Positions 18,819 to 34,663 of a stretch of 64,000 nucleotides of DNA are shown one piece after another (positions within the stretch are counted from its first letter, which is position 1; every line of letters starts with the position of its first letter). The stretch lies in assembly GCF_004367585.1 (NCBI RefSeq), contig NZ_CP038015.1:629001-693000 (forward strand), written 5' to 3'. The translations under genes were made by a program, and so were the position numbers. The notes under the pieces were generated by a model that saw only the letters and a program-made list of their open reading frames with translations, made no database searches and had not been told where the DNA came from. This DNA comes from Paenisporosarcina antarctica (GTDB lineage Bacteria; Bacillota; Bacilli; Bacillales_A; Planococcaceae).

Positions 18819-20015
18819 GTGAAGAAGAAATGGGTTAGTACATTAGGTATTTTAGGTTTATGTACTTGTTTGACATTACCGGTATATGCAGCTGAAATGG
18901 TTAGCAAGCCTGAAACACATCACCATGAGAATGCCATTTCTGGATTCGTCAACTACAGTGAATTACAGAAAACCCTCCGTCAAATTGAAGAGAAGAGCAA
19001 AGGACTTGTTCAAGTGGAAGTGGCTGGAAAGTCACACAATGGCTTGGATATTTACACAGCAACGGTCGGCACTGGAGATAAAGTTATTCTTGTTCAAAGT
19101 GAAATTCATGGGAATGAAAAAACAGGTACGGTAGCACTCCTGAATTTATTGCAAAATCTTTCAACTAACTCGAAACAAGCACAAGAAATACGTGAGGAAT
19201 TGACACTTGTCTTTATGCCGATGATGAATCCAGATGCCTCTGAGGCTGATAAGCGCAGAAACAGTATGACATGGGATGAAGTCCTAGACAAATTTCCACA
19301 ACTGACTGGTGCGACACCATCATGGAACTATTTGGACCGAGGTATCAGCCAAAGTTATAACTATGGGGAAAATCCTGGTTTTGACGTAAATCGTGACTTC
19401 AATCCGAATCTAAATTATGTTCCTGAAGCACAAGACTTTCCTGGTGCTTCTAATAAGCCAGGTTGGTTCATTACACCAGAATCACAGACTGCTCGTGATG
19501 TATACAAATCACTAAAAGATGAGTACGGAAATGTAGATGTCTTCGTAGATCTTCATCACCAAGGTATGTATTACGTGGAAGGTACAGCTGACAAAGTAAC
19601 ACTTTCTTTATCCGCACAGTTTGTTCCGGATCCAAATACGTCGGAAGGTGCTAAATACGCAGAATATGCGGAAAACTATAGGTATGATTATTCAAGACAA
19701 TTAAATGTTGCCGCTTACAATGAACTACAATCTTACGGCAACTCTAAATTCACAAATATCTCTCTTTATTCCCAAGGACTTGACCTTCCAGGAACCGCGC
19801 TTGGTAGTTATGCATTAAATGGAAGCGGAACCGTTCTTTTCGAAGTAAGAGGACAGACTCAAATGATGGGGCATAAAGAAAAAGGGCAACTTGTAAAATC
19901 AGTAGAACGAGGCCTTACTGGAATTATCGAAGCGGTAGCTGATGGTTCAATTGAAACATTGAATCCTGAAGATTACGATAATATTCCGCTTACATCAAAT
20001 AAACCATCCAACTAA
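18819..20015 (+). CDS. secreted M14-family zinc carboxypeptidase (first of two)
   Basis: 398 residues from GTG 18819 (AAGGAG 9 bases upstream). Signal peptide residues 1-24, cut near VYA-A. Zinc ligands H97 and E100 (SEIHGNEKTG) and a later His in VDLHHQG near residue 247; the catalytic Glu is in LFEVRGQ near residue 348. It would remove C-terminal residues from peptides outside the cell. 51 bases separate it from a paralogue on the same strand. Confidence 0.88.
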   Translation: MKKKWVSTLGILGLCTCLTLPVYAAEMVSKPETHHHENAISGFVNYSELQKTLRQIEEKSKGLVQVEVAGKSHNGLDIYTATVGTGDKVILVQSEIHGNEKTGTVALLNLLQNLSTNSKQAQEIREELTLVFMPMMNPDASEADKRRNSMTWDEVLDKFPQLTGATPSWNYLDRGISQSYNYGENPGFDVNRDFNPNLNYVPEAQDFPGASNKPGWFITPESQTARDVYKSLKDEYGNVDVFVDLHHQGMYYVEGTADKVTLSLSAQFVPDPNTSEGAKYAEYAENYRYDYSRQLNVAAYNELQSYGNSKFTNISLYSQGLDLPGTALGSYALNGSGTVLFEVRGQTQMMGHKEKGQLVKSVERGLTGIIEAVADGSIETLNPEDYDNIPLTSNKPSN

Positions 20016-20066
20016 ACTATCAATATTTTGATAATTCAATATGATGAAAACCAAGGAGGAAATTAA

Positions 20067-21107
20067 ATGAAGAAAACCGTACTTACTTTATCCATTGCTG
20101 GAGCGATGATGCTCAGCGTATCGCCCTTCGGTTCTCCCGTTGCGAACGCGGTAGGAAATGGTCCTACTTATGGAGGGAATGAAACGATTAACACTTCGAT
20201 ACTCCATACTTATGATGAAATGGCGGACTACCTAAAGAAACAGGATGTCAAACAACAGGATATGAAACTTGAAGTAATTGGCCAAAGTATCAAGGGAAGG
20301 GATTTATATCTGGCGAAGTATATAAAAAACCCTAAAAATCCAACGATTTTGTTTTTAACCCAGCAGCATGGAAATGAACAGCTTACAACTGAAGGTGCTC
20401 TTGAATTTATTAAGCATCTAGGTACAGACAAGATGAAAGGTGTTACAGACGGGGTTAATATCTTAATCGTTCCTATGCTGAATGCAGATGGCGCTATGGG
20501 TGATGTGGACTTCTCTCTTGATGATTATATCGCAAAGGGAGATAGGAATTTAACTCGCTATAATGCAGCGGAAGTAGACTTGAACCGTGATCATATAACT
20601 AAAATCCAACCAGAAACAAAAGCACTGCATAATAATGTTATGAAGAAATATAATATTGATTACATGATTGATCTTCATCATCAAGGAGCAATGAGTGAAA
20701 GGGACGGTAAGCTTGTTTCTGGGTCTATCCTTTATCCTACAACTCCAAATGCTGATCCGGAAGTTGTACAAAAATCCAAACAACTCGGTGCAGTTGTGTT
20801 TGATGCCATCGATGAAAAAGGTTGGGGCCACCTTGGCAAATACAACGGAGGATCTGCTGAAACAATCAGCAGAAACGGTATTGCCGTAGAATACGGTATT
20901 TCAACACTCTTATTCGAAATGCGAGGAATGTCCGATCATGAATACGAATCATATGTGTTAGGGCAAAAGAGCAATGGCTATTTGATAAAACAAACCGTTA
21001 CAACTCTTGATGCAACGGTTCGTGCAATTGCAGACCGTTCAATTGAATCGAAAGATACATCATTTTGGGATTCACTTTCTTACCAAACAACACGTCCTTC
21101 AGAATGA
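20067..21107 (+). CDS. secreted M14-family zinc carboxypeptidase (second of two)
   Basis: 346 residues with signal peptide 1-28 (cut near ANA). Zinc ligands H101 and E104 (QQHGNEQLTTE) and His of IDLHHQGA; catalytic Glu in LLFEMRGM. It is a diverged paralogue of the upstream gene, so the pair arose by tandem duplication or serves different substrates. Strong AAGGAGG ribosome binding site. Confidence 0.88.
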   Translation: MKKTVLTLSIAGAMMLSVSPFGSPVANAVGNGPTYGGNETINTSILHTYDEMADYLKKQDVKQQDMKLEVIGQSIKGRDLYLAKYIKNPKNPTILFLTQQHGNEQLTTEGALEFIKHLGTDKMKGVTDGVNILIVPMLNADGAMGDVDFSLDDYIAKGDRNLTRYNAAEVDLNRDHITKIQPETKALHNNVMKKYNIDYMIDLHHQGAMSERDGKLVSGSILYPTTPNADPEVVQKSKQLGAVVFDAIDEKGWGHLGKYNGGSAETISRNGIAVEYGISTLLFEMRGMSDHEYESYVLGQKSNGYLIKQTVTTLDATVRAIADRSIESKDTSFWDSLSYQTTRPSE

Positions 21108-21111
21108 TTTA

Positions 21112-21152
21112 AAAAACGCCTCTGGTAGAAATATACCGAGAGGCGTTTTTTT
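21112..21152 (+). terminator. intrinsic terminator of the carboxypeptidase pair
   Basis: ACGCCTC and GGTA pair with TACC and GAGGCGT, followed by seven T. Confidence 0.9.
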
Positions 21153-21283
21153 GTATTGTGTGGATGTTTATTGATTGTCATTTATTCTTAATAAATTTTT
21201 CTTTGATAACAACTTAATAAAAAATAGAAATACTAAAAATAATGCTAATTTGAGTAATAAATCTGAGGTATTTAATTACATGT

Positions 21284-21583
21284 TCAACCAGGAAAGGACT
21301 CTAAAAACTCATCATGGCTTATAGAATAATATTTTTGGTAATTTTTTATTGCATGGATTCTTTTCACTATACGTGGATCTTCCATCATATATATTTTCAT
21401 TTGATGAATTTCTTCTTCATTTTCTAAATAATGAGCTTCGATTTTTTCCTCAGCGTAGTCAAATAAAGTAACTATCTCTTTTTTATTGGTAGTAACAGGA
21501 ATAAACACAAAGTATTCGTATTCACCTCTGATTCCTAAATATTCACCAGAATCATCCTTGAAATATTTAAATAATAACATCAT
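21284..21583 (-). CDS. hypothetical protein
   Basis: 99 residues (or 98 from the second ATG, which is better spaced from AAGGAG). No signal peptide, membrane helix or known motif; charged and Tyr-rich (GIRGEYEYFVFIPV, ENEEEIHQMKIYMM). Not recognised. It stands alone, convergent with the carboxypeptidase operon. The good ribosome binding site is the main support. Confidence 0.6.
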   Translation of the reverse strand: MMLLFKYFKDDSGEYLGIRGEYEYFVFIPVTTNKKEIVTLFDYAEEKIEAHYLENEEEIHQMKIYMMEDPRIVKRIHAIKNYQKYYSISHDEFLESFPG

Positions 21584-21684
21584 GCAGCTCCTTAAATTTT
21601 TCTCCTTATTATTGTCAAAATAAATATTATTTATTCAATTGTTATTGGGAATTTGAAATCGCTATGTTTGTAAATTCGGGTATC

Positions 21685-21893
21685 GTGAGGAAGTTATTGG
21701 AGGCATATAATTGAATTCTCAAAAGGGATGGAAAGATAGTGGTTTAAAGTATTATCTGTAGATGCATCAACTGCTCGTCGGCAATTTTAAAAACGCTTTG
21801 GTATGACTTTTGTTGAGTATGCTTGAACAAGAAGGATGAATAGCCACGAATATATTGGAGCTGGACGGGATGTCATGATGCGCAACTTGTTGC
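21685..21893 (+). pseudogene. remnant of an Ada/AraC-type DNA repair activator
   Basis: Reads VRKLLEAYN, then after a frameshift near 21727 WFKVLSVDASTARRQF, stop, KRFGMTFVEYA, stop, TRRM. This matches the AraC-type helix-turn-helix region of Ada family alkylation-response proteins (VDASTARRQFKKRFGMTFVEYARARRMG), from memory. At least two stops and a frameshift make it non-functional; flanking parts of the gene are missing. Confidence 0.7.
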
Positions 21894-21977
21894 TACTCAT
21901 AAATATTATTTCAAAGAAACGATTCTTTATTACTAAAGCAAATTTGTCTAGTAAAAGCAAGAAAAGTAAGTCTAGTA

Positions 21978-21993
21978 ATGGAAGCGTTTTCAA
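21978..21993 (+). promoter_or_regulatory. cre site (CcpA operator) upstream of the transporter/lyase operon
   Basis: ATGGAAGCGTTTTCAA fits the cre consensus WTGNNARCGNWWWCAW at every position. It lies about 60 bases upstream of a TATAAT (22054-22059) and 100 bases before the first gene. It suggests carbon catabolite control by CcpA, as expected for a nutrient-degradation operon. Confidence 0.7.
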
Positions 21994-22094
21994 GAAAGCA
22001 AGAAAATGCTTTAATTCGAATTTAAATCTAGTGTGGCAAAAAAGCAAATAAAATATAATTTAAATAATCTAAATATTAAAAAGGAGGTGTGGAT

Positions 22095-22712
22095 TTGAGT
22101 TATCTTATTTCAAACTTTGATAAAGTCTTTAAGTTGTTCATCGAGCATCTGTATCTTGTATCACTTTCATTATCTGTAGCTCTCATCATCGCTACAGTGT
22201 TGGGGATTACAATATCTAGATATAAAAGGCTCTATACACCGGTAATTGGGGTATTAGGGGTAATTTATACAATTCCTAGTATTGCGTTGTTTGCCTTAAT
22301 GATTCCATTAATAGGGTTAGGTTTTAAGTCAGCGTTTATTGCACTAGTTGCTTATTCACAAATGATACTTGTACGTAATATTGTTGCAGCAATTAGAGGG
22401 ATTGAACCATCTATTATTGAGGCTGCAAAAGGTATGGGAATGGGTAAGTGGAGAATTTTATTCAAAATTGAAATACCTCTTGCCCTCCCCGTAGTTATTG
22501 CAGGTATAAGAATAGCAACGGTTTCAATTATTGGTATTGCTACAATTGCAGCTTATATTAACGCAGGTGGATTGGGAGAATTGATCTTTGAAGGTATTTA
22601 TCAAGATCATTCGCAAAAAATTATTGCAGGAACGATTGCAGTCGCATTTTTAGCAGTTTCTGCAGATATCGGATTTAGATTACTTGAAAAAAAATTAAAC
22701 ATGCAAGGTTAA
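22095..22712 (+). CDS. quaternary-amine ABC transporter permease, OpuCB/HutW-like
   Basis: 205 residues with five to six membrane helices and the permease EAA loop (IEAAKGMGMGKWRILFKIEIP), which contacts the ATPase. It belongs to the OpuC/ProW group of betaine-type importers. Start is the TTG at 22095, 7 bases after AAGGAGG; the GTG at 22089 is too close to that site. First gene of a probable operon with a second permease, a binding protein, an ATPase, the HutH-like and HutU-like enzymes and a regulator. Confidence 0.85.
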   Translation: MSYLISNFDKVFKLFIEHLYLVSLSLSVALIIATVLGITISRYKRLYTPVIGVLGVIYTIPSIALFALMIPLIGLGFKSAFIALVAYSQMILVRNIVAAIRGIEPSIIEAAKGMGMGKWRILFKIEIPLALPVVIAGIRIATVSIIGIATIAAYINAGGLGELIFEGIYQDHSQKIIAGTIAVAFLAVSADIGFRLLEKKLNMQG

Positions 22713-22731
22713 TAGAAAGAGGGTGAATGAT

Positions 22732-23370
22732 GTGATCGTGAGTCAAGCTTACACCTATATCTTAAATAATATGGAAATTTTTTTAGGGGCAGTTAAAGTT
22801 CATCTTATTTTGAGTTCTGTGGCAGTTGCTATTGGTATTAGTATCTGTGTACCACTTGGGATTTTCCTAGCTAAAACAGAAAAGGCATCTCTAATTATTA
22901 TGAATGTCGTTAATATTGGTAGAATCATCCCAAGTTTAGCGGTGTTAGCGTTACTTATGCCTTTCGTTGGAATTGGTTTTTATCCATCATTAATTGCTTT
23001 AACATTACTGGTTTGTCCACCTATTTTGATAAATACCGTTATTGCGGTTAAGGAAGTAGATAAAAATATAGTAGAGGCAGCTTATGGAATGGGGATGGAT
23101 AAAGCAAGAGTTATTCGCAAAGTGGAACTCCCTTTAGCACTTCCTGTTATTATTACGGGCATAAAAACAGCTTCTGTGGAAGTTATTGCAAGTGCTACAC
23201 TAGCCGCCTTTATAGGAGGTGGTGGATTAGGCGTCTTTATTATTAATGGGATTGCAGGAGCAAATGCATCCATGCTACTAGTAGGAGCAATTCCTGTAGC
23301 CTTACTTGCACTTTCAGCAGAATTTATTTTGGGTGGTATTGAAAAACTTACAACACCGCCAACTACTTAA
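22732..23370 (+). CDS. quaternary-amine ABC transporter permease, OpuCD/HutW-like
   Basis: 212 residues, same fold as the first permease, with EAA loop VEAAYGMGMDKARVIRKVELP. Paired permeases are the rule in OpuB/OpuC systems. The GTG at 22732 has AGAGGG 8 bases upstream and is preferred over GTG 22723. 19 bases after the first permease. Confidence 0.85.
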   Translation: MIVSQAYTYILNNMEIFLGAVKVHLILSSVAVAIGISICVPLGIFLAKTEKASLIIMNVVNIGRIIPSLAVLALLMPFVGIGFYPSLIALTLLVCPPILINTVIAVKEVDKNIVEAAYGMGMDKARVIRKVELPLALPVIITGIKTASVEVIASATLAAFIGGGGLGVFIINGIAGANASMLLVGAIPVALLALSAEFILGGIEKLTTPPTT

Positions 23371-23398
23371 TTGTTTATAAAAAAGGAGGATTTAGAAA

Positions 23399-24322
23399 AT
23401 GAAAAGTCGGAAAATTCTTAGTTTATTTAGTTTCATTTTGATTATTTCTATTTTTGTTACTGGTTGTGGAGGGGCAGATTCTAGTTCGAAAACTAGTGAG
23501 GATGGAAAGCCAACTATAAGTGTAGGATCAAAAAACTTTACTGAACAATTTATTTTAGGTGAAATTTATTCTCAGGCTTTAGAAGCAGAAGGTTATCCAG
23601 TAGAACGAAAACTAAATCTTGGTGGTACTCTAGTGGCATTTGAAGCTTTAAAAAGTGGGGACATTGACCTTTATCCGGAATACACAGGTACTGCTTTAAT
23701 GGATATTTTAGATGGCGAACCATCAGGAGACGGAGATGCGGTCTATCAAGAAGTGAAAGATGGGTTGGCAAAAGATAATATTGAGGTTTTAGATAAAACG
23801 AATTTTAACAACACTTATGTGGTTGTTGCAACGAAAGAGATAGCTGAGAAGCACAATCTAAAAACATTGTCTGATTTAGCTGTGAAGGCACCAGAGCTAA
23901 ACTTTGCACTCATCCCAGAATTTTCAGAACGGGCAGATGGATTACCTGGTTTACAAAAAACATATGGTGGATTTGAATTTAAAAATACACAATTGTTTGA
24001 GATTGGTTTAAAATATCGGGCACTTACATCAGGTGAAGTGGATGTTACAATCGGATTCGGTACAGATGGGCAAATTGCTGGGTTTGATTTAGTGGCATTA
24101 GAAGATGATAAAAACTTTTGGCCTCCATATCATGCAGTACCTTTAGTGCGTAAAAGTATTGTAGAAGAAAATCCTGAAATTGCGGAAATTCTTAATAAAA
24201 TTAATGGATTATTAGATGATAAGAAAATGGCTTCATTAAACTGGAAAGCTGATGGGGAAGACAAAGAAGAACCATCGGATATTGCAAAGGAATTCCTTGA
24301 GGAAAATGGCTTTTTTGAGTAA
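23399..24322 (+). CDS. quaternary-amine substrate-binding lipoprotein, OpuCC-like
   Basis: 307 residues; lipobox VTGC (Cys23), then a periplasmic-type binding fold of the OpuAC/ProX family: ISVGSKNFTEQFILGEIYSQ, LYPEYTGTALMDIL and YRALTSGEVDVTIGFGTDGQI. It should capture a betaine-like compound outside the membrane. In this context the likely ligand is a trimethylated histidine derivative such as ergothioneine or hercynine (inference; EgtU is a related ergothioneine binder). Confidence 0.85.
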   Translation: MKSRKILSLFSFILIISIFVTGCGGADSSSKTSEDGKPTISVGSKNFTEQFILGEIYSQALEAEGYPVERKLNLGGTLVAFEALKSGDIDLYPEYTGTALMDILDGEPSGDGDAVYQEVKDGLAKDNIEVLDKTNFNNTYVVVATKEIAEKHNLKTLSDLAVKAPELNFALIPEFSERADGLPGLQKTYGGFEFKNTQLFEIGLKYRALTSGEVDVTIGFGTDGQIAGFDLVALEDDKNFWPPYHAVPLVRKSIVEENPEIAEILNKINGLLDDKKMASLNWKADGEDKEEPSDIAKEFLEENGFFE

Positions 24323-24359
24323 CGTGTAAGGCACTTTTTTTAAAGATATTTAAATATAT

Positions 24360-24388
24360 AAAGGGGGATCAATTTGATTCCCTTTTTG
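24360..24388 (+). terminator. intra-operon terminator/attenuator
   Basis: AAGGGGGATCAA pairs with TTGATTCCCTT, followed by TTTTTG, between the binding-protein and ATPase genes. Partial termination here would give more binding protein than ATPase and enzymes, a common arrangement in ABC operons. Confidence 0.65.
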
Positions 24389-24405
24389 TTCAAAGGAGGA
24401 TAATG

Positions 24406-25395
24406 ATGAGTAAGATTGTATTTAAAGATGTCATGAAAATTTATCCAGGTAATGAAAAGAATGCGGTAAATAATGTGAACCTTGAGGTTAATTCAGGTGA
24501 ATTTATTGTCTTTTTAGGAACTTCTGGTTGTGGAAAAACAACGCTACTTAAAATGACCAACCGTCTTTATGCGCAAACAAAAGGGCAAATTATTATAGAT
24601 GATACAGACACAAGAGAACTACCAGTTAATGAGCTTAGAAGAAAAATAGGATATGTTATTCAACAAAGTGGATTATTCCCACATATGACAGTTGAAAAAA
24701 ATATTGCAGTTGTTCCAGATATGTTAGGATGGGATAAAAAAAAGATTGCTCAACGAATAGAAGAATTACTAGAACTAGTTCACCTAGATCCAAAGGTATA
24801 TCGTTCTAGATATCCTCGTCAACTTTCTGGTGGTGAACAACAAAGAATTGGACTTGCACGTGCATTAGCTGCTGATCCACCGATTATGCTAATGGATGAA
24901 CCCTTTGGTGCCATTGATGCGATTACAAGAACAAAGCTACAAGATGAATTGATTCATATTCAAAAAAAGTTGCATAAGACCATCCTGTTTGTTACCCATG
25001 ATGTAGATGAAGCGTTAAGGCTTGCAGATAAGATTGTCATTATGAAAGACGGAGATATCGTTCAATTTGATACACCTTTAAATATTATTGCCAAGCCTAA
25101 AAATGATTTTGTGCGTGATTTAATTGGTGGAGATGATATTATCCGTCAAATTAGTCTAATTAATATTAGTGATGCAATGCAAAAAGTGACAGAGACAATA
25201 ACAGTCGACTCCACCCTAACAATCTCTGATACAAGTGATCTTAAATCTGCATTAGCGGCGATGCTAAAGTCAAGAACTGAGCAATTGTATGTAGTTGATG
25301 AAAGAACCCAGGTCATTGGCATAATCAACTTTGCTCAAATTCAAGCACTTTTAAGTCCTAATAAAAAAGAAAAACATGCTCTAGAGGTACATTAA
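24406..25395 (+). CDS. quaternary-amine ABC transporter ATPase with CBS domain, OpuCA-like
   Basis: 329 residues. Walker A GTSGCGKTT (38-46), Q-loop region VIQQSGLFPHMTV, signature LSGGEQQRIGLARALA, Walker B IMLMDEPFGA, then THDVDEALRLADKI. The C terminus carries a CBS-like segment (KSRTEQLYVVDERTQVIGII), as in OpuCA/ProV-type ATPases that are sensitive to ionic strength or ligand. The ATG at 24406 is better spaced from AAGGAGG than the ATG 3 bases before. One base separates its stop from the lyase gene. Confidence 0.88.
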   Translation: MSKIVFKDVMKIYPGNEKNAVNNVNLEVNSGEFIVFLGTSGCGKTTLLKMTNRLYAQTKGQIIIDDTDTRELPVNELRRKIGYVIQQSGLFPHMTVEKNIAVVPDMLGWDKKKIAQRIEELLELVHLDPKVYRSRYPRQLSGGEQQRIGLARALAADPPIMLMDEPFGAIDAITRTKLQDELIHIQKKLHKTILFVTHDVDEALRLADKIVIMKDGDIVQFDTPLNIIAKPKNDFVRDLIGGDDIIRQISLINISDAMQKVTETITVDSTLTISDTSDLKSALAAMLKSRTEQLYVVDERTQVIGIINFAQIQALLSPNKKEKHALEVH

Positions 25396-25396
25396 G

Positions 25397-26938
25397 ATGA
25401 CAGTAATGAAGAGTATGTTTAAAGAAATTCTAATAGACGGTAGTAGAAAAGAAATTGAAGATGTAGTAGCGGTTGCAAGAAACAGAGTGGAAGTAGAGTT
25501 AAGTAAAGAAACAAAAGTAAGAATTCATAAATGTAGATTATTAGTAGAAAAATTTGTGGTTGAAAAGCGCGTTGTATACGGAATAACGACTGGACTTGGT
25601 GAACTTTGCAAAGTAAATGTTCCTGCAGATAAGTTATCAGAGCTGTCTAAAAAAATTATTATGAGCCATGCGTGCGGCATGGGAGATCCGATTCCTCAAG
25701 ACCAAGTTCGAGCAATCATGTTTTCGGCTATTTTAAACTTTAGCCATGGACATTCAGGGGTACGAGTTGAAACAGTTGAAACGCTTGTGAAGATGCTCAA
25801 TTTAGGAGTGACACCGCATGTCCCTTCACAAGGTTCAGTCGGATATCTAACTCATATGGCTCATATCTCGCTTGTTCTAATTGGATTAGGACAAGCGTAC
25901 TATGATGGTCAACTTATTTTAGGAAAAGAAGCAATGGGAAAAGCGGGAATCCAGACAATTACTTTAGAGGCTAAAGAGGGACTCTCATTAGTCAATGGCA
26001 CTGTATGCATGACTGGAATAAGCTCTTTAGTTATTTATGATGCATTGCAACTAGCAAAGTGGTCAGACATATCAGGGGCGATGAGTTTTGAAGCTCTTAA
26101 GGGAACGAGATATGCATTTGATAAACGAGTTAATGAGCTACGTCCTTATAAAGGACAATGTCAAGTTGCTAATAACCTACTGCGATTAATAGAAGGTAGT
26201 GACATAGCAGAATTATACAAAGACTATCGAGTTCAAGATGCCCTAAGTCTTAGAGCGATGCCACAGGTTCATGGTGCTAGTCGCGATAAGATTGACCATG
26301 CGATAGAAATCATTTCAATCGAATTAAATTCAGCAACAGACAACCCACTGATTTTTGAAACAGCAGAAGGCGGAATCTCGCTTTCATCTTGTAATGCACA
26401 TGGCGAACCAATTGCACAAACAATGGACATGTTAGCAATTGCGGTCTCAGAGCTAGGGAGCATTTCTGAACGAAGAATTGATCGCTTAGTTAATCCACAT
26501 GTGAGTGAATTACCTGCCTTTTTAGTGAAAAATCCAGGGTTAAATACAGGATTTATGATACCACAATATGTTGCAGCTTCTTTAGTAGCTGAAAATAAAG
26601 TGTTATCTCATCCTATTTCTGTGGACTCCATACCAATGTCTGCTTATCAAGAGGATCATGTAAGTATGGGAACGCCTGCGGCACTCAAAGCAAACCAAGT
26701 TATACGAAATGTTCAAAAAGTAATATCAATTGAATTATTAACTTCTGCTCAAGCGTTTGAATTCCATCATCCTTTACAATTTGGTGTTGGAAGTTCACTA
26801 ATCTATAAGTTAATTAGAGAGCAAATTCCAGCATGGGATGAAGATCGTGTCTTTTATCCAGACTTAGAAAAAATGAAACAAATTGTGGAAGGCAATAGTT
26901 GGATTAACTTAATAGAAAAAGAGATAGGAACATTATAG
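25397..26938 (+). CDS. MIO-less histidine ammonia-lyase homologue, probable ergothionase
   Basis: 513 residues, full length for the HutH/PAL family. Conserved family residues are present: Y61 (VYGITTG), H91 (SHACGMGDP), N200 (LVNGT), R286 (LSLRAMPQV) and E419 (YQEDHVSMG). But where HutH has GSVGASGDLAPLSH, this protein reads GSVGYLTHMAH (146-156): exactly the Ala-Ser-Gly that cyclises to the MIO electrophile is missing. The active-site Tyr of QDPYS is Leu283. Ordinary histidine cannot be deaminated by the usual MIO route. MIO-independent members of this fold include ergothionase, which eliminates trimethylamine from ergothioneine to give thiourocanate. Gene context (betaine-type importer, urocanase homologues) fits this. 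Hercynine is an alternative substrate. Confidence 0.8.
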   Translation: MTVMKSMFKEILIDGSRKEIEDVVAVARNRVEVELSKETKVRIHKCRLLVEKFVVEKRVVYGITTGLGELCKVNVPADKLSELSKKIIMSHACGMGDPIPQDQVRAIMFSAILNFSHGHSGVRVETVETLVKMLNLGVTPHVPSQGSVGYLTHMAHISLVLIGLGQAYYDGQLILGKEAMGKAGIQTITLEAKEGLSLVNGTVCMTGISSLVIYDALQLAKWSDISGAMSFEALKGTRYAFDKRVNELRPYKGQCQVANNLLRLIEGSDIAELYKDYRVQDALSLRAMPQVHGASRDKIDHAIEIISIELNSATDNPLIFETAEGGISLSSCNAHGEPIAQTMDMLAIAVSELGSISERRIDRLVNPHVSELPAFLVKNPGLNTGFMIPQYVAASLVAENKVLSHPISVDSIPMSAYQEDHVSMGTPAALKANQVIRNVQKVISIELLTSAQAFEFHHPLQFGVGSSLIYKLIREQIPAWDEDRVFYPDLEKMKQIVEGNSWINLIEKEIGTL

Positions 26939-26963
26939 TGTTATGAATGGAGAGGATAATCAT

Positions 26964-28604
26964 ATGGAGCCTTTAGTTCATCATCAATATTTTTCCGAAG
27001 GTTTACAATGTAATGATTGGCAAGTAGAAGGAATTCTTAGAATGTTTTTAAATACAATCGATTCGGACGTAGCAGAGGATCCAGATAACTTAGTTGTTTA
27101 TGGAACTGGTAAGGCTGCTAGAAACCAGGAATCCGTAAGGGGGATTATATCGACGTTAAAAAAGCTGAAAAGTGATGAAACTCTTCTCATTCAGTCAGGG
27201 AAACCTGTTGCAGTATTTAAAAGCTTTGAGCATTCACCAAGAGTTATTGCTGTCAACTCAGTCCTTGTTCCAGCATTTGCAAACTGGGATGAATTTCGTC
27301 AATTAGAAAAAAGCGGGCTAACGATGTATGGGCAATCAACTGCTAGTTCTTGGTCTTATATAGGTTCACAAGGGGTCCTTCAAGGAACATATGAAACATT
27401 TAATGTTTTGGCTAAAGACCACTTTAGTGGAACGTTAAAAGGGAAATGGATTTTAACTAGTGGACTTGGAGGAATGGGAAGTGCTCAACCGACTGCAATA
27501 AAGATGAATGATGGCGTCTCTCTAATCGTAGAGATAGATTTTAATAAAATTGAAAGAAGTGTAAAGTATAATATTTGTGATGTTTCTACTGATAGTTTAG
27601 ACGAAGCGCTAAATTATGTGAAAGTAGCCATTGAGAATAATATTACACTGAGCGTGGCATTACTTGGTAATGCAGCTGAAGTTTATCAGGAGCTTGTTCA
27701 TCGGAATGTTATTCCTGATATCGTAACAGATCAAACGTCAGCACATAATCTTCTAGATGGATACATTCCAGCTGATTATACACTTGAGCACGCTAAACGG
27801 ATTAGGGAACAAGTACCTGAAATGTACTTGAGGGATGCCAAGGAAACCATAATTCGTCATGTAACATCAATGGTAGAATTTAAAAAAAGAGGTTCAGTTG
27901 TATTTGATTATGGAAATAGCATTCGTCAGCAAGCGAATTCTGCAGGTTATGAAGAGGCACTTTCATTTCCGAGTTTTATCCCAGCTTACATTCGAAACCT
28001 TCAATGTGAAGGCTATAGTCCATTTAGGTGGGTAGCTTTATCGGGAGATCCGAGTGATATTTATAAAATTGATGATATTGTCAAAAATCATTTTTCAGAT
28101 AATGAAAAAATAAAGAAATGGATTGAATATGCACAAGCTAATATTCGTTTTCAAGGTCTTCCAGCGAGAACATGCTGGATGAAAGCGGAGGATCGTATTT
28201 GGATTGCCGAAAAAGTAAATGAATTAGTTGCAGAAGGAATCATACTGGCTCCTATTGTGTTTACTCGCGATCACATGGATGCAGGCTCTATGGCTTCACC
28301 TATGCGTGAAACGGAAGATATGAAAGATGGAAGTGACGTTATCGGAGATTGGCCAATCTTGAATGCTTTACTAAATACAGCTAATGGAGCTACGTTTGTC
28401 AGTTTTCATCATGGCGGAGGAGTTGGAATTGGTTACTCGTTACATGCGGGTATGAGCCTAGTAGTAGATGGTAGTCGTATGGTTCATGAGAAAATTCCGA
28501 GAATTTTTACAGGGGACGTAGGTATAGGTATTATTCGATATGCTGATGCTGGTTATGATATAGCTATTCAAAAAGCAAAGGAATTGAAGCTTGGCTTGAA
28601 GTAG
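26964..28604 (+). CDS. divergent urocanase-family hydratase, probable thiourocanate hydratase
   Basis: 546 residues, urocanase length. NAD-binding and family motifs are kept: [53 protein letters not shown] (the position of the catalytic cysteine of urocanase) and FHHGGGVGIGYSLHAG. It differs from the canonical copy at 30368 at many otherwise fixed sites (GQSTASSW for [16 protein letters not shown] for [16 protein letters not shown] for ICWLGYGE). Being next to the MIO-less lyase, it may hydrate thiourocanate. Start ATG 26964 has GGAGAGGA upstream; ATG 26943 lacks a site. Confidence 0.75.
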   Translation: MEPLVHHQYFSEGLQCNDWQVEGILRMFLNTIDSDVAEDPDNLVVYGTGKAARNQESVRGIISTLKKLKSDETLLIQSGKPVAVFKSFEHSPRVIAVNSVLVPAFANWDEFRQLEKSGLTMYGQSTASSWSYIGSQGVLQGTYETFNVLAKDHFSGTLKGKWILTSGLGGMGSAQPTAIKMNDGVSLIVEIDFNKIERSVKYNICDVSTDSLDEALNYVKVAIENNITLSVALLGNAAEVYQELVHRNVIPDIVTDQTSAHNLLDGYIPADYTLEHAKRIREQVPEMYLRDAKETIIRHVTSMVEFKKRGSVVFDYGNSIRQQANSAGYEEALSFPSFIPAYIRNLQCEGYSPFRWVALSGDPSDIYKIDDIVKNHFSDNEKIKKWIEYAQANIRFQGLPARTCWMKAEDRIWIAEKVNELVAEGIILAPIVFTRDHMDAGSMASPMRETEDMKDGSDVIGDWPILNALLNTANGATFVSFHHGGGVGIGYSLHAGMSLVVDGSRMVHEKIPRIFTGDVGIGIIRYADAGYDIAIQKAKELKLGLK

Positions 28605-28621
28605 TCGTAAGGGGTGATAAG

Positions 28622-30199
28622 TTGAATATTTTAGTTGCTGAAAGAAGTGATTTCCATAGGAATGGAATAAAATGGATGTTGGCTAGCTCTGGTTGTGAGA
28701 TTGAGCAGTATACAGAAGTTCAATCGACATCAGAGTTCTTTTCTTCAATTGAAACTTACCAGTACCATTTAGTAATCATCGAAATTGAAATGCTAATAGA
28801 CGATGAGTGGAAACACTTCAAAAAACTTACAAATCATACTACTGTAGTTGCTATTTCTGACAAAAAAGATTTTGACTTGGCGGTTAAATGTCTCGAAAGT
28901 GGGATATATCGTATTTTTATAAAACCATTAGCCATAAAGACTATTATGGATGTGATTCTAAAAGTAAGTTCTGATAGTAAAAGGAGTGCTAATGAGGGAA
29001 GTGACAGTGATCTTAAACTGGATTTGTCACTGGTAAAAAAACAATGGGTTAATAATCTTATCTATGGTCATGTTACACATGTGAAAGAAGTATGGGATCA
29101 AGCAAACTTGTTAGGTTGTCGAATATTACCTAGTGTCGTAATAGTTTGTAAGATTAGTTATCTACGTGAAATGACAAAAAATAAAAGTGACCACTGGAAG
29201 AAACAATTAATGACAACCATCTACAATAAAGTAGAAGAGTTCTGTGCTCAATATTCATTGATTACAATAAAGAATTACGATAAATTTGTTGTTTTATATT
29301 CTCCTAAAAAAGGTGAACAAAAGCAAGAAACTTTAAGGAATGTAAAAAAAATAAGTTATGAACTTTTTGATTGGATGAACAAAGAAACAGGCTGTACCCT
29401 GTACATTGCATGTGGAAATGAATATAAAGATCCTATGCACTTATATCATTCTTATAATGAAGCAAAAAGGTTAATAGATTTAGAATATTATTTTTCTCAG
29501 GGAAAGGTCATTCACTATGCTGATCATCCGCAATTATTTAATGATAATATTATTGATGAGATAGAGCTTCTACCCTTAGGGGATGAACTTACAAAAGAAA
29601 ACCTTCCATTTATTTTCTCTCAACTTGAAAACAATCTAAAGGTCATGAAAGAAACAGGTGTTTCACCTTTATACTATAAAATTACCTTGTTATATATCCT
29701 TTCTCAAATATCGAATCTATTCATAAAAAATGAGAAAGATCATTTCAAATTCTTTTTAAAACAAAGTGAAAGTGTTATCAATAGTGAGACAATCGAAGAA
29801 GTATTACCTAAAATAAAGCAATTCTTAATTGAACTTGCAGATGTCGATGCTAACTCATTTCAACATATTGTTATTGAAAAAGCTTTAGATTATATACATG
29901 AAAATTATGTGCGCGGTATTACACTTGAAGAAATAGCTGAATTTGTTAAAAGAAGTCCGTATTATTTTAGTCATCTTTTTAAAAAGGTTATGAATATGAC
30001 TTTTGTTGAGTATTTAACGAATCTAAGAATAAAGAGAGCAAAAGAGCTATTAATGGAAGGTGATTATACAATATCTGAAATAGCATCATTAATTGGTTAC
30101 CAGGACCCTAATTATTTTAGCAGAGTATTTAAAGCTATTAGTGGGGAATCTCCTAAACAATGGAAAACAAAAAAATACTTAGAACAGACAAAAAATTAA
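28622..30199 (+). CDS. AraC-type regulator with degenerate response-regulator receiver
   Basis: 525 residues from TTG (AAGGGG upstream). Residues 1-115 are a receiver-like domain, but the phospho-acceptor position reads IIE54IEM instead of a D, and the upstream acidic pair is E7-R8; Lys in FIKPL is kept. The middle (about 130-400) is unassigned. The C terminus has two AraC helix-turn-helices (ITLEEIAEFVKRSPYYFSHLF, TISEIASLIGYQDPNYFSRVF). The layout is YesN-like but with no kinase gene nearby, so control by phosphate is doubtful; a ligand such as the pathway substrate is more likely. It probably activates the operon. Confidence 0.85.
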   Translation: MNILVAERSDFHRNGIKWMLASSGCEIEQYTEVQSTSEFFSSIETYQYHLVIIEIEMLIDDEWKHFKKLTNHTTVVAISDKKDFDLAVKCLESGIYRIFIKPLAIKTIMDVILKVSSDSKRSANEGSDSDLKLDLSLVKKQWVNNLIYGHVTHVKEVWDQANLLGCRILPSVVIVCKISYLREMTKNKSDHWKKQLMTTIYNKVEEFCAQYSLITIKNYDKFVVLYSPKKGEQKQETLRNVKKISYELFDWMNKETGCTLYIACGNEYKDPMHLYHSYNEAKRLIDLEYYFSQGKVIHYADHPQLFNDNIIDEIELLPLGDELTKENLPFIFSQLENNLKVMKETGVSPLYYKITLLYILSQISNLFIKNEKDHFKFFLKQSESVINSETIEEVLPKIKQFLIELADVDANSFQHIVIEKALDYIHENYVRGITLEEIAEFVKRSPYYFSHLFKKVMNMTFVEYLTNLRIKRAKELLMEGDYTISEIASLIGYQDPNYFSRVFKAISGESPKQWKTKKYLEQTKN

Positions 30200-30217
30200 C
30201 ATTTATTTGTTAAACAA

Positions 30218-30246
30218 ACCTAGTAATCAAAAATAAATTACTAGGT
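30218..30246 (+). terminator. hairpin between regulator and hutU
   Basis: ACCTAGTAAT/ATTACTAGGT, a perfect 10-bp stem with a 9-base loop. The tail (GTAAAACCTTTC) is not T-rich, so termination may be weak. Confidence 0.5.
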
Positions 30247-30367
30247 GTAAAACCTTTCTTAATTCGCAATTGCTAATATACTCCTTTTTTAAAAGAAGCA
30301 CTTAAATTTAATTATCTGAATTTTCAGGATTAATACTACTAAAAAAATTATTTATAAGGAGAACACA

Positions 30368-32032
30368 ATGACAAAAATAGTAGGTAGAGAAATTAAAGCA
30401 CCACACGGAACAAAATTACAAACAAAAGGATGGGTACAAGAAGCAGTACTTCGGATGCTTATGAATAACTTAGATCCTGAGGTTGCAGAGTACCCTGATA
30501 AACTAGTTGTTTACGGTGGGATTGGTAAAGCGGCTAGAAATTGGGAGTCATATGACAAAATTATTGAGTCATTAAAAAACTTAGAAGATGATGAAACACT
30601 CCTAATTCAATCCGGAAAACCAGTTGCTGTATTCCGTACCCATAAGGATTCACCAAGAGTGCTATTAGCGAACTCAAATATTGTCCCAGCATGGGCGAAT
30701 TGGGATGTATTTCATGAATTAGATAAAAAAGGGTTGATTATGTATGGTCAGATGACAGCGGGGAGCTGGATTTATATTGGAAGTCAAGGAATTGTTCAAG
30801 GAACATATGAGACTTTTGCGGAATGTGCTAGACAACATTTTGGAGGAAGTCTTAAAGGAACAATTACTGTTACAGCGGGGTTAGGTGGTATGGGTGGTGC
30901 ACAACCACTAGCTGTAACAATGAATGACGGAGTGGTGATTGGAATCGATGTAGATCGTTCAAGAATCGAAAAACGGATTGAGACTAGATACTGTGATGTC
31001 CTAATAGATTCATTGGATGAAGCGATAAAGTTAGCTGAAGAAGCGAAAGATGAAGGTCGCCCTCTTTCCATTGGACTTTTAGGGAATGCAGCTGAAATTT
31101 TACCTGAAATGATTGGTAGAAACTTTATTCCAGAAATTATTACTGATCAAACCTCTGCCCATGATCCACTAAATGGTTATCTACCTATAGGTCTTAGTCT
31201 TGCAAAAGGGGACGAGCTCCGTCAATCGAATCCGAAAGAATATGTTCGTCGTGCAAAAGAAGGAATGGCTATACATGTGAAAGCGATTTTAACGATGCAG
31301 GAAAAAGGGTCTATTGCATTTGATTATGGTAATAATATTCGCCAAGTAGCTTTTGATGAAGGAGTAACGGATGCATTTAATTTCCCAGGGTTCGTACCAG
31401 CGTATATTAGACCACAATTTTGCGAGGGGAAAGGACCTTTTAGATGGGTTGCTTTATCAGGAGATCCTGAAGATATTAGAAAAACAGACGAAGTGATTTT
31501 AAGAGAGTTTTCATACAATGAAAACTTATGTAAATGGATTAAAATGGCGCAAGAACGAATTGCTTTCCAAGGACTTCCTGCACGTATTTGTTGGTTAGGT
31601 TATGGGGAAAGAGCACGCTTTGGAAAAATTATTAATGACATGGTTGCTTCTGGTGAATTATCAGCTCCTATTGTTATAGGGCGTGACCATTTAGATGCAG
31701 GCTCTGTTGCATCACCGAACCGAGAAACGGAAGCAATGAAAGATGGCAGTGATGCAATTGCTGATTGGCCAATTTTAAACGCATTAGTAAATACGGCTGC
31801 AGGAGCTAGTTGGGTTTCTCTTCACCATGGTGGTGGAGTAGGAATGGGTTACTCTATTCATGCAGGAATGGTTGTTGTAGCTGATGGTACAGAAGAGGCA
31901 GGGAAGCGTATTGAGAGAGTGTTAACGACAGATCCTGGAATGGGAGTAGTTCGACACGCTGATGCCGGTTATGAATTAGCAATTGATACCGTAGAGAAAA
32001 AAGGAATTCATATGCCAATGCTAAACGAATAA
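30368..32032 (+). CDS. hutU: urocanate hydratase (canonical copy)
   Basis: 554 residues closely following classical Hut[90 protein letters not shown] (catalytic Cys) and [17 protein letters not shown]. It adds water to urocanate to form imidazolone propionate using NAD+ as an electrophile. AAGGAG precedes the ATG. No hutI, hutG or MIO-type hutH is in the window, so urocanate would have to come from elsewhere (hercynine, imported urocanate or an unlinked HutH). Confidence 0.92.
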
Positions 32033-32103
32033 TTCTATAGGTAGATTATGTGACTTTATATAAGCCAAGATCGGTATCTAAAAAATCTGTTGAAATAGGA
32101 AAA

Positions 32104-32157
32104 GAAGGGGGAGTCCCAAAAGTCAATTTAATGACTTTTATGCCAGGCCCTCTTTTC
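32104..32157 (+). mobile_element. solo end of the ISL3-like repeat
   Basis: GAAGGGGGAGTCCCAAAAGTC, T-rich spacer, GACTTTTatgccaggCCCTCTTTTCAT: clearly related to the left end of the element at 55328. No transposase remnant follows. It also can fold as a hairpin and may end hutU transcripts. Confidence 0.6.
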
Positions 32158-32401
32158 ATATTATGGGTCTGTTAAAAAACTCAGATGATTTCCTCAACAA
32201 CGTACTTTGATTTTTCGAACCTAAGCTGAGCGATGCAGAAACAAGCGGGCGGTGCGTAATCCTACTCAGGAAAACAGGAGGTTGGTCACGAAGACTTTAC
32301 CTCGTGAAGTGGCGTTCTTTAGCCTTCGTTCATTACAATCATTTAACTGTTTAAAAATAAAAATCAACAGTATTATACAACATAGCATTAAAAATAAATA
32401 A

Positions 32402-32465
32402 AAAAAATCGTCCTTTCTTGTAAATGAGAATACCCGCATCTACATTTAGAAAGAACGATTTTTTA
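32402..32465. terminator. bidirectional terminator
   Basis: AAATCGTCCTTTCT and CATTTA stem strands pair with their complements up to ACGATTTTTT; A- and T-runs flank both sides. It would end the minus-strand gene at 32606. Confidence 0.75.
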
Positions 32466-32605
32466 TTTGCAATCCAAAGATTTCTTATCAAAAAATTAAT
32501 TCATTGAACGAACAACTTCTCTGCTTAAAGAGGATTTGTAGGAACATGATAACCTAACCTGTTTTTGTTAAATTTAAATTACCTAGTAATTATGCTCGAA
32601 TTTCA

Positions 32606-33295
32606 CTACTGAATCAAATGATCATTGTATCCAGTTATAGTATCCATATGGCTCGCAATCATGGCAATAATTGTGCTTGCTTCTTCTTTTGTAAAGGTAA
32701 AAGTACTTTCATCTTCGTAAAGCTCCGCTTCATCTGTCCAGATTCGGTTGACCCTTCGGAGAACTCCATTACCGTTTGTGCTATCTAACCCAAATTGATA
32801 GGTTACTTCAACTTCATCCGCAATCTGGAATGCAGTGACTTCAGGTGTTTCCCAGTCAACTGTAATTTCTTCAAGGGTATCTTCCTCATCTAAAACTTCA
32901 CCGATGTAGAATTCTCCTTCTTCATCCTCTAAAAGGTAATCCTCTTTATGATCAATCTCATCAACAAAATACACTTCACTCTCATCATTCATAAAGGTAT
33001 GAAAGCTTTCATGAACAGCGTCAATTACATCTTCAATATCCGCAAGAATAATTCTTGCTGGCTGTTCAAAATCCAAATCAAAACTTTCTACATAAAACTC
33101 TTCGTTATGCGGATCAAAGAGGAGCGTGCAAAAGTAATCTCTATCGTCATCATCCTTCTCAATAAAAAATTCTATTCTTGGATGTTTTGCACTCTGATCG
33201 ATAGTCATATGACCGGTCTGGTCATATTTTTCACAAATCGATTTCAGATTATCTTGAAGCTCACCAGACACTCTGTTAAACCATTCCATGGACAT
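32606..33295 (-). CDS. acidic hypothetical protein
   Basis: 229 residues, strongly acidic (runs such as EKDDDDRDYF, LEDEEGEFYIGEVLDEED), no signal or membrane segments. AAAGGGG lies upstream of the ATG. I do not recognise the family. The minus-strand neighbour upstream is the spore protein gene tlp. Confidence 0.7.
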   Translation of the reverse strand: MSMEWFNRVSGELQDNLKSICEKYDQTGHMTIDQSAKHPRIEFFIEKDDDDRDYFCTLLFDPHNEEFYVESFDLDFEQPARIILADIEDVIDAVHESFHTFMNDESEVYFVDEIDHKEDYLLEDEEGEFYIGEVLDEEDTLEEITVDWETPEVTAFQIADEVEVTYQFGLDSTNGNGVLRRVNRIWTDEAELYEDESTFTFTKEEASTIIAMIASHMDTITGYNDHLIQ

Positions 33296-33652: not shown

Positions 33653-33892
33653 TAATATTCCCTCCTTCATTTTAATAAAAATCCTTCAATACTTAGTGTT
33701 CCCAAGTTTGTAAAAACTATTTGTATTACATTTAATCAAAGCACTAGCATTATATATCAATAAATTCATGTAATTAAGTGTATGAATTTGGAGTAAAGTG
33801 GATTTTTTAAGGTTTAATAAAAAGGGATTGAAAACAGATTAGTGGTTAAGATAAATGATGATTTGAAAATAAAAAAAGGAGTTGAAGATCAA

Positions 33893-34663
33893 TTGTTTAC
33901 AAAGGCATTATTGATTAAATTCATCATGATAACAGCTGTTTTATGGATTGTTTTAGGATGGTTTTACGGGATTTCCTTTACAAATATTTTAATTACAAGT
34001 GTCTTCTTAACAGGGTTTGCATATGTCTTGGACGTGTATATTTTACCTCGAATTGGCAATGTTTTTGCATTGATTTCTGATTTGGTAGTTGCATGGGCTG
34101 TAATTTGGATAGTGGGTTCAATTTTTTATCCACTCGCTAATTTAGGCACAATTTCATTAATAGCTGCTATTATCATCACAGTTGGTGAGATGTTTTTCCA
34201 TCCGTATATGGAACGAAAATTTGATGATGAACATGAGCCATCTCGAGAAGAAAACAAACGTCAATACAAAGGGAATTTACAAACTGAATTTGCAGAAGAT
34301 ATGGATATTAAAACAGCTGCACAAGCCAAAGAGAAAGACGTTAATATGATTAAGTCCGAAAAACGAAATGAAAATGATCCATCTCGAGAAAAACGTCAAT
34401 ACAAAGGGAATTTACAAACTGAATTTGCAGAAGATATGGATATTAAAACAGCTGCACAAGCCAAAGAGAAAGACGTTAATATGATTAAGTCCGAAAAACG
34501 AAATAAAAATGATCCATCTCGAGAAGAACGTCAATACAAAGGGAATTTACAAACTGAATTTGCAGAAGATATGGATATTAAAACAGCTGCACAAGCCAAA
34601 CAAAAAGACGTTAATATAATTAAGTCCAAAAAACGAAAAGTTAATCGTAGTCGCAGAAAATAA
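33893..34663 (+). CDS. DUF2512 (YndM-like) membrane protein with three 45-residue repeats
   Basis: 256 residues from TTG 33893 (AAGGAG 11 bases before; FTKALLIKFIM aligns with the YndM start); GTG 33842 is an alternative. Four membrane helices (about 5-115) form the DUF2512 domain. The basic cytoplasmic tail is three near-identical 45-residue repeats, each with RQYKGNLQTEFAEDMDIKTA and QAKEKDVNMIKS. Ordinary DUF2512 proteins have only one short TEFAEE-type tail, so the tail has been amplified. Function unknown. Confidence 0.8.
   Translation: MFTKALLIKFIMITAVLWIVLGWFYGISFTNILITSVFLTGFAYVLDVYILPRIGNVFALISDLVVAWAVIWIVGSIFYPLANLGTISLIAAIIITVGEMFFHPYMERKFDDEHEPSREENKRQYKGNLQTEFAEDMDIKTAAQAKEKDVNMIKSEKRNENDPSREKRQYKGNLQTEFAEDMDIKTAAQAKEKDVNMIKSEKRNKNDPSREERQYKGNLQTEFAEDMDIKTAAQAKQKDVNIIKSKKRKVNRSRRK
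34238..34642 (+). repeat. three tandem 135-bp coding repeats
   Basis: The period is exactly 135 bases (CGTCAATAC at 34259, 34394 and 34529). Copies are almost identical at the DNA level, implying recent amplification; the first copy carries two extra codons and the last has drifted at its 3' end. 135 is a multiple of three, so copy-number change keeps the frame. Confidence 0.9.

Follow-up and report, generated by a model that had tools for sequence, protein, structure and literature searches.

Architecture of a putative betaine-catabolic operon

The window analyzed here is a 64,000-nucleotide stretch of the Paenisporosarcina antarctica genome (contig NZ_CP038015.1, positions 629,001 to 693,000). 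At positions 22095 to 32032, its plus strand carries eight genes in the order permease, permease, binding protein, ATPase, lyase, diverged urocanase (UrocB), AraC-type response regulator, and HutU. The lyase (25397–26938; 513 residues) is a full-length paralogue of the histidine ammonia-lyase (HAL) HutH that lacks the tripeptide forming the 4-methylideneimidazole-5-one (MIO) electrophile, and we propose that it acts as a hercynine trimethylamine-lyase. It is preceded by the genes of an OpuC-type ATP-binding cassette (ABC) importer: permease 1 (22095–22712), permease 2 (22723–23370), a substrate-binding protein of the OpuC/ProX/EgtUC kind for quaternary amines (23399–24322), and an ATPase of the betaine/proline/choline family (24403–25395), which ends 1 base before the lyase starts. 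For permease 1, taken from the open reading frame (ORF) call, the TTG start at 22095 was judged by eye to fit a ribosome site better than the alternative GTG at 22089. The ATPase, of the ProV type, scored 339.9 bits on TIGR01186 (cut-off 326.6), and the PDB relatives of the binding protein by sequence are choline and nicotine sensor proteins, EgtUC, ProX, and OpuCC; ORFs and family matches thus agree on the quaternary-amine importer that the original prediction, made from the DNA letters, had placed here.

UrocB (26943–28604) begins 4 bases behind the lyase and is followed by the response-regulator/AraC-type transcription factor (28622–30199), relatives of which adjoin hutU in three other loci (L187–L189), and by a canonical urocanate hydratase, HutU (30368–32032; 994 bits on TIGR01228). 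Elsewhere in this genome, a hutU-hutI-hutG group near C1:120–124 kb supplies a third hutU. The one MIO-bearing HutH (C1:981 kb) lies apart from all three hutU places and from the sole hutI above cut-off; its presence suggests that histidine degradation is independent of the MIO-less lyase operon. The regulator, the operon HutU, the third hutU with hutI and hutG, and the separate HutH were all absent from the original prediction, as was the active-site leucine described below. A scan for promoters and terminators gave nothing beyond the level of shuffled sequences.

At residues 146 to 156 (25832–25864, plus strand), the lyase reads GSVGYLTHMAH, which aligns as GSVG-YLTHMAH with GSxGASGDLAPLSH of HutH. 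The Ala-Ser-Gly-Asp found at the MIO site in 58 of 58 MIO-bearing HutH rows of the alignment is missing, and Tyr150 takes its place; because Ala-Ser-Gly is gone, MIO cannot form. The residues said to be retained, Tyr61, His91, Asn200, Arg286, and Glu419, are all present and align with Pseudomonas putida HAL residues 53, 83, 195, 283, and 414. A further change is Leu283 (codon 26243–26245, plus strand), the equivalent of HutH Tyr280, which is tyrosine in all 58 MIO rows. Compared with HutH, the lyase shares the fold, the equivalents of Tyr53, His83, Asn195, Gln277, Arg283, and Glu414, and a hut neighborhood, but it lacks Ala-Ser-Gly and Tyr280 and is coupled to quaternary-amine importers. Its best PDB sequence matches are HALs (7tqr, 374 bits; P. 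putida HAL, ~361 bits), with 217 bits for the ergothionase 6s7j, and its identity is 39.7% to P. putida HAL (471 columns) versus 29.5% to the Treponema denticola ergothionase. An AlphaFold2 model (mean pLDDT 92.1, pTM 0.92) superposed on HAL with TM scores of 0.92 to 0.94 and on 6s7j with 0.90/0.93, so the fold does not tell the two apart. Judged by its active site, the lyase appears not to be a histidase.

Phylogeny and neighborhoods of the GSxGYL family

A GSxGYL pattern scan of genome contigs from 84,980 species returned at least 118 loci, and 118 of 118 encode the MIO-less HutH family. These loci, together with relatives found by similarity, rule out chance as the origin of the deletion. 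Among the matches listed (80 titles) are many Pseudomonas, as well as Erwiniaceae, Burkholderiales, Bacillales, Clostridia, Streptomyces, and others. At a strict profile threshold, which may miss divergent members, the lyase was found in 3 of 261 genomes of the window's order and in 1 of 398 in a phylum sample (the window's own). Wherever annotation was seen, the GSxGYL lyases are labeled histidine ammonia-lyase, a label that is probably wrong for the clade. In Blautia and Eubacterium assemblies and a Neobacillus (L066, L072, L120), a second MIO-less lyase, or part of one, lies near the first, either side by side or flanking a BCCT transporter.

A careful 36-row tree places its 20 GSxGYL rows in a single clade (support 100/99), separate from that of the three ergothionase-group rows (100/100). 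The window lyase is sister to that of Paenibacillus eucommiae, within a group A that also holds Priestia and Pseudomonas (100/97). A quick tree of 142 rows likewise recovered a single GSxGYL clade (support 95), with 80 rows over several phyla. Where this clade branches among the MIO-bearing HutHs is less certain (90/81 in the 36-row tree). The lyase had been predicted to belong to the ergothionase clade, but it falls outside that branch, which is one half of a joint outcome (the other being a binding protein that prefers glycine betaine or choline) that the original prediction had named as speaking against itself. The T. denticola enzyme is the one assayed ergothionase in the tree; other assayed ergothionases are those of Burkholderia HME13, Cupriavidus, and Agrobacterium.

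The deletion also separates the two groups. All 80 GSxGYL rows have tyrosine at the MIO site and three residues fewer than MIO-bearing HutH, whereas the ergothionase group (the assayed enzyme and three relatives, 4 of 4 rows) has one residue fewer. Most rows were retrieved with a pattern that includes the tyrosine, so in them it is necessarily invariant; it also occurs in lyases found by similarity without the pattern, namely those of Priestia, Sinorhizobium, and Burkholderia and two same-family copies. Position 280 lay outside the pattern. Leucine occupies it in 75 of 78 rows of groups A and B (74 of 76 distinct, two genes being counted twice; the exceptions are two histidine rows of one gene and one tyrosine row), in both rows of group C, in all four ergothionase-group rows, and in 110 of the 113 loci with a readable simple motif. 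The T. denticola ergothionase (6s7j/6s7q) thus resembles the lyase in its aromatic-lyase fold, its lack of MIO, and its leucine at the Tyr280 position, but differs in missing a single residue (SSIGEGDITTLSH), in its separate branch, and in having serine at position 195. At that last position, asparagine is kept in 57 of 57 rows of group A, which fits a plain imidazole substrate; the ergothionase group has serine (3/4) or valine (1/4). Lyases with one residue missing also occur on plasmids of Sinorhizobium, Polaromonas, Rhizobium, and Ochrobactrum (L167/L199, L198, L040, L168), annotated, where annotated, as histidine or aromatic amino acid ammonia-lyases; their neighborhoods differ and include the ornithine cyclodeaminase family and, in L199, a gene annotated as dimethylsulfoniopropionate lyase.

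Each neighboring gene was labeled after the member of a small reference set that it matched best by BLAST. Upstream sequence of 700 bases or more is present in 80 motif-A loci. In 79 of them, the gene immediately 5′ of the lyase belongs to a transporter, namely a quaternary-amine ABC ATPase in 62 (HutV type 59, OpuC type 3), an amino-acid ABC ATPase in 13, a BCCT transporter in 3, and a Dpp-type permease in 1, leaving none in 1; the reference genes come partly from the counted loci, and the counts have no control beside ordinary HutH. The 20 motif-B loci have BCCT (8), MFS (4), another lyase (1), hutU (1), or nothing recognized (6) at this place. Genes for hutU, hutI, or hutG lie on the lyase strand in 62 of 94 motif-A, 7 of 22 motif-B, and 1 of 2 other loci. 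Their arrangement varies: a Paenibacillus locus whose lyase is 69% identical (L055) reads binding protein-ATPase-lyase-hutU-hutI-hutG, with no UrocB in the piece examined; a Priestia plasmid reads regulator-hutU-hutI-agmatinase-family-MFS-MFS-lyase, with no other hutH listed in its incomplete gene table; and a Burkholderia locus (L195) reads amino-acid ABC-lyase-hutC. In a Candidatus Adiutrix motif-B locus, the lyase ends 3 bases before an MttB-family methyltransferase (ORF call), behind which lies a further ORF that we take to be a sodium-solute symporter.

Two Pseudomonas loci (L042 and L050) together give the order hutU-permease-HutX-HutW-HutV-lyase-HutH-hutI, which is the hut order of Pseudomonas fluorescens SBW25 in the accessible text of PMC8871633. 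Matched by locus position, Pseudomonas loci thus carry the GSxGYL clade where hutH1 is described, and in SBW25 that gene is dispensable for growth on histidine, according to the same text. As in the window, an ABC importer directly precedes the lyase; unlike in the window, the one binding protein tested (L042) belongs to the OpuAC type, and no UrocB was seen.

UrocB scored 769.6 bits on the HutU model TIGR01228 (cut-off 375) and 627 bits on the NCBIfam thiourocanate-hydratase model, against a cut-off of 930. The divergence claimed for it is borne out: at 13 positions where 19 HutU rows never vary, all four UrocB rows differ. We guess that it is an active urocanase with changed specificity. Of the 397 other genomes in a class sample, 3 have orthologues (~69–73%). 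Two of these (G342 and G481, the latter from the window organism's own family) share the order importer, lyase, UrocB, regulator, hutU; behind it come hutI and hutG in G342 and a hutG match in G481. The third (G282) has UrocB-regulator-hutU-hutI-hutG behind another permease with no lyase beside UrocB, and the lyase profile matches nothing in its genome but a MIO-bearing HutH at another place.

Substrate of the lyase

We propose, with a probability of roughly 0.6, that the operon serves to import hercynine, eliminate trimethylamine from it, and deliver urocanate to the Hut pathway. The OpuC-type transporter would take up a histidine betaine, most likely hercynine (N-alpha-trimethylhistidine); the MIO-less HutH paralogue would cut off trimethylamine by 1,2-elimination; and the urocanate would enter the ordinary pathway through the operon HutU and then HutI and HutG encoded elsewhere in the genome. 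Trimethylamine leaves without electrophilic activation, so MIO is not needed. The lyase would, most likely, work like ergothionase, also a MIO-free enzyme in the accessible text of PMC13405746, on a sulfur-free substrate. The enzymes of hutU, hutI, and hutG handle urocanate, and the frequent presence of these genes beside relatives of the lyase favors hercynine. Substrate, product, direction of transport, and inducer are here predictions from sequence. The catabolic operon and probable trimethylamine elimination of the original prediction are supported on the same basis; of the two substrates it offered, hercynine is favored by the hutU, hutI, and hutG neighbors, whereas tree, deletion type, and urocanase scores speak against ergothioneine.

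Were the substrate ergothioneine, the lyase would release trimethylamine and UrocB would hydrate the thiourocanate. The loss of MIO and the change of Tyr280 to leucine, both common to the lyase and ergothionase, are consistent with this, as is the importer: its binding protein is related to EgtUC of the EgtU ergothioneine importer (184 bits to 9o5f), although the window, unlike EgtU, encodes permease and binding protein separately. We nevertheless consider it unlikely. Lyase and ergothionases occupy separate, well-supported branches, the lyase is closer in identity to HAL, and three residues rather than one are missing. Neither operon urocanase reaches the 930-bit thiourocanate-hydratase cut-off (UrocB 627, HutU 706), which removes the hydratase role predicted for the urocanase homologue; UrocB as thiourocanate hydratase is rejected on this score, and ergothionase membership of the lyase is rejected on tree, deletion type, and partner urocanase together. 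Six HutUs beside GSxGYL lyases behave alike (887–1018 bits on the HutU model, 650–712.5 on the thiourocanate-hydratase model), whereas in the control, a Burkholderia arboris locus (L197), an ergothionase-type lyase (GSIGEADITILSH) adjoins a urocanase scoring 1050. This is an apparent ergothioneine locus, and the ergothionase pathway, where seemingly present, looks different from the GSxGYL loci. Relatives of the operon (G342, L055) continue with HutI and HutG, and in the accessible text of PMC9732360 EgtUC binds hercynine weakly, which suggests that importers distinguish the two betaines. In a further ORF of the B. arboris locus, an L-aspartate-glyoxylate aminotransferase-like domain was recognized at a score under the model cut-off.

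The hercynine scheme leaves UrocB unexplained. Its place 4 bases behind the lyase and its altered conserved sites could mean a ring-modified substrate, such as a ring-methylated histidine betaine, from which the lyase would remove trimethylamine, with UrocB hydrating the modified urocanate and HutU serving another branch. UrocB directly follows the lyase in G342 and G481 too, and its departure from HutU at 13 conserved sites agrees with such a role. The idea is improbable in our judgment, though somewhat less so than ergothioneine: the piece examined around the 69% identical lyase of Paenibacillus has hutU-hutI-hutG but lacks UrocB, the UrocB of G282 lies beside hutU-hutI-hutG with no lyase there, and modified products are not obviously suited to HutI and HutG. 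Least probable of all is a HutH that has decayed or taken on another role and no longer acts as a lyase, or one that still works slowly as a histidase without MIO. The lyase does pass the NCBIfam HutH model and keeps the equivalents of HAL Tyr53, His83, Gln277, Arg283, and Glu414, but MIO and Tyr280 are both gone, and an 80-row clade over several phyla with tight transporter linkage points to a selected catalytic function.

Several other observations weigh against the hercynine proposal. The HutH model TIGR01225 accepts the lyase at 588.4 bits (cut-off 539.15) despite the missing MIO. Joining all MIO-less rows costs 6.1 log-likelihood units and is not rejected by the approximately unbiased test (p-AU 0.168), a result that is also consistent with the ergothionase reading; the number of MIO losses may be one or two. 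Group B has serine at position 195 in 16 of 21 rows and aspartate for His330 in 21 of 21, so substrates may differ within the family. The neighbor counts carry the limits given with them, and 32 of 94 motif-A and 15 of 22 motif-B loci show no hutU, hutI, or hutG in the sequence piece examined, many pieces being cut. The MttB relative of Candidatus Adiutrix reads through without a stop and is presumably not a pyrrolysine trimethylamine methyltransferase. No report of growth on hercynine was found among the open-access papers listed, and hercynine, urocanate, and trimethylamine never occurred together in one paper of the open-access literature searched; the subscription literature may hold a prior hercynine lyase. 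In the accessible text of PMC8871633, HutXWV has a part in histidine uptake, and in that of PMC12772324 (2025), a Pseudomonas aeruginosa mutant of PA5093, there called hutG, is impaired on histidine and urocanate. By the gene order in L083, PA5093 could be the MIO-less lyase, which would oppose a hercynine-only role.

We lean slightly toward a broader form of the hercynine proposal, in which the MIO-less clade, including Pseudomonas HutH1, is a widespread second entrance to the Hut pathway, making urocanate and trimethylamine from hercynine brought in by HutXWV/OpuC, BCCT, or MFS importers. If true, hercynine lyase would parallel ergothionase on a substrate free of sulfur and would add to the ways in which bacteria make trimethylamine. 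It would also account for the orphan second histidase in the hut locus of Pseudomonas and for what becomes of a metabolite made by fungi and actinobacteria. HutH and HutH1 would then form a natural pair in which to study the loss of the electrophile from an elimination fold as the leaving group improves.

Gain or loss of the segment and adjoining features

The operon lies in an 11.5-kb segment (21124–32632) that has no aligned counterpart in a congener (G076): the alignment ends at 21123 and resumes at 32633, and the two flanking genes are neighbors there, ~180 bases apart. The lyase was not found at the strict profile threshold in eight other genomes of the genus (one of them 81% complete). 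Gain in the window genome appears likelier than loss in the congener. Positions 21283–21494 match another place ~3 kb away in the congener, so the junction has been rearranged as well. The GC content of the operon (35.9%) is that of the window (35.8%) and gives no sign of foreign origin, and no direct or inverted repeats of at least 20 bases were found in 21000–33000. On the 5′ side, two adjoining ORFs at 18819–21107 presumably encode secreted zinc-carboxypeptidase-like proteins, the second being 94% identical to the gene beside the operon-less place in the congener. Between these and the operon, the noncoding stretch 21690–21900 resembles a stop-interrupted, decayed helix-turn-helix fragment, which we take to be of the Ada/AraC type. 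Downstream, the ORF at 33842–34663 contains three tandem near-identical copies of a unit of ~45 residues (QYKGNLQTEFAEDMDIKTAAQAKEKDVNMIKS...).

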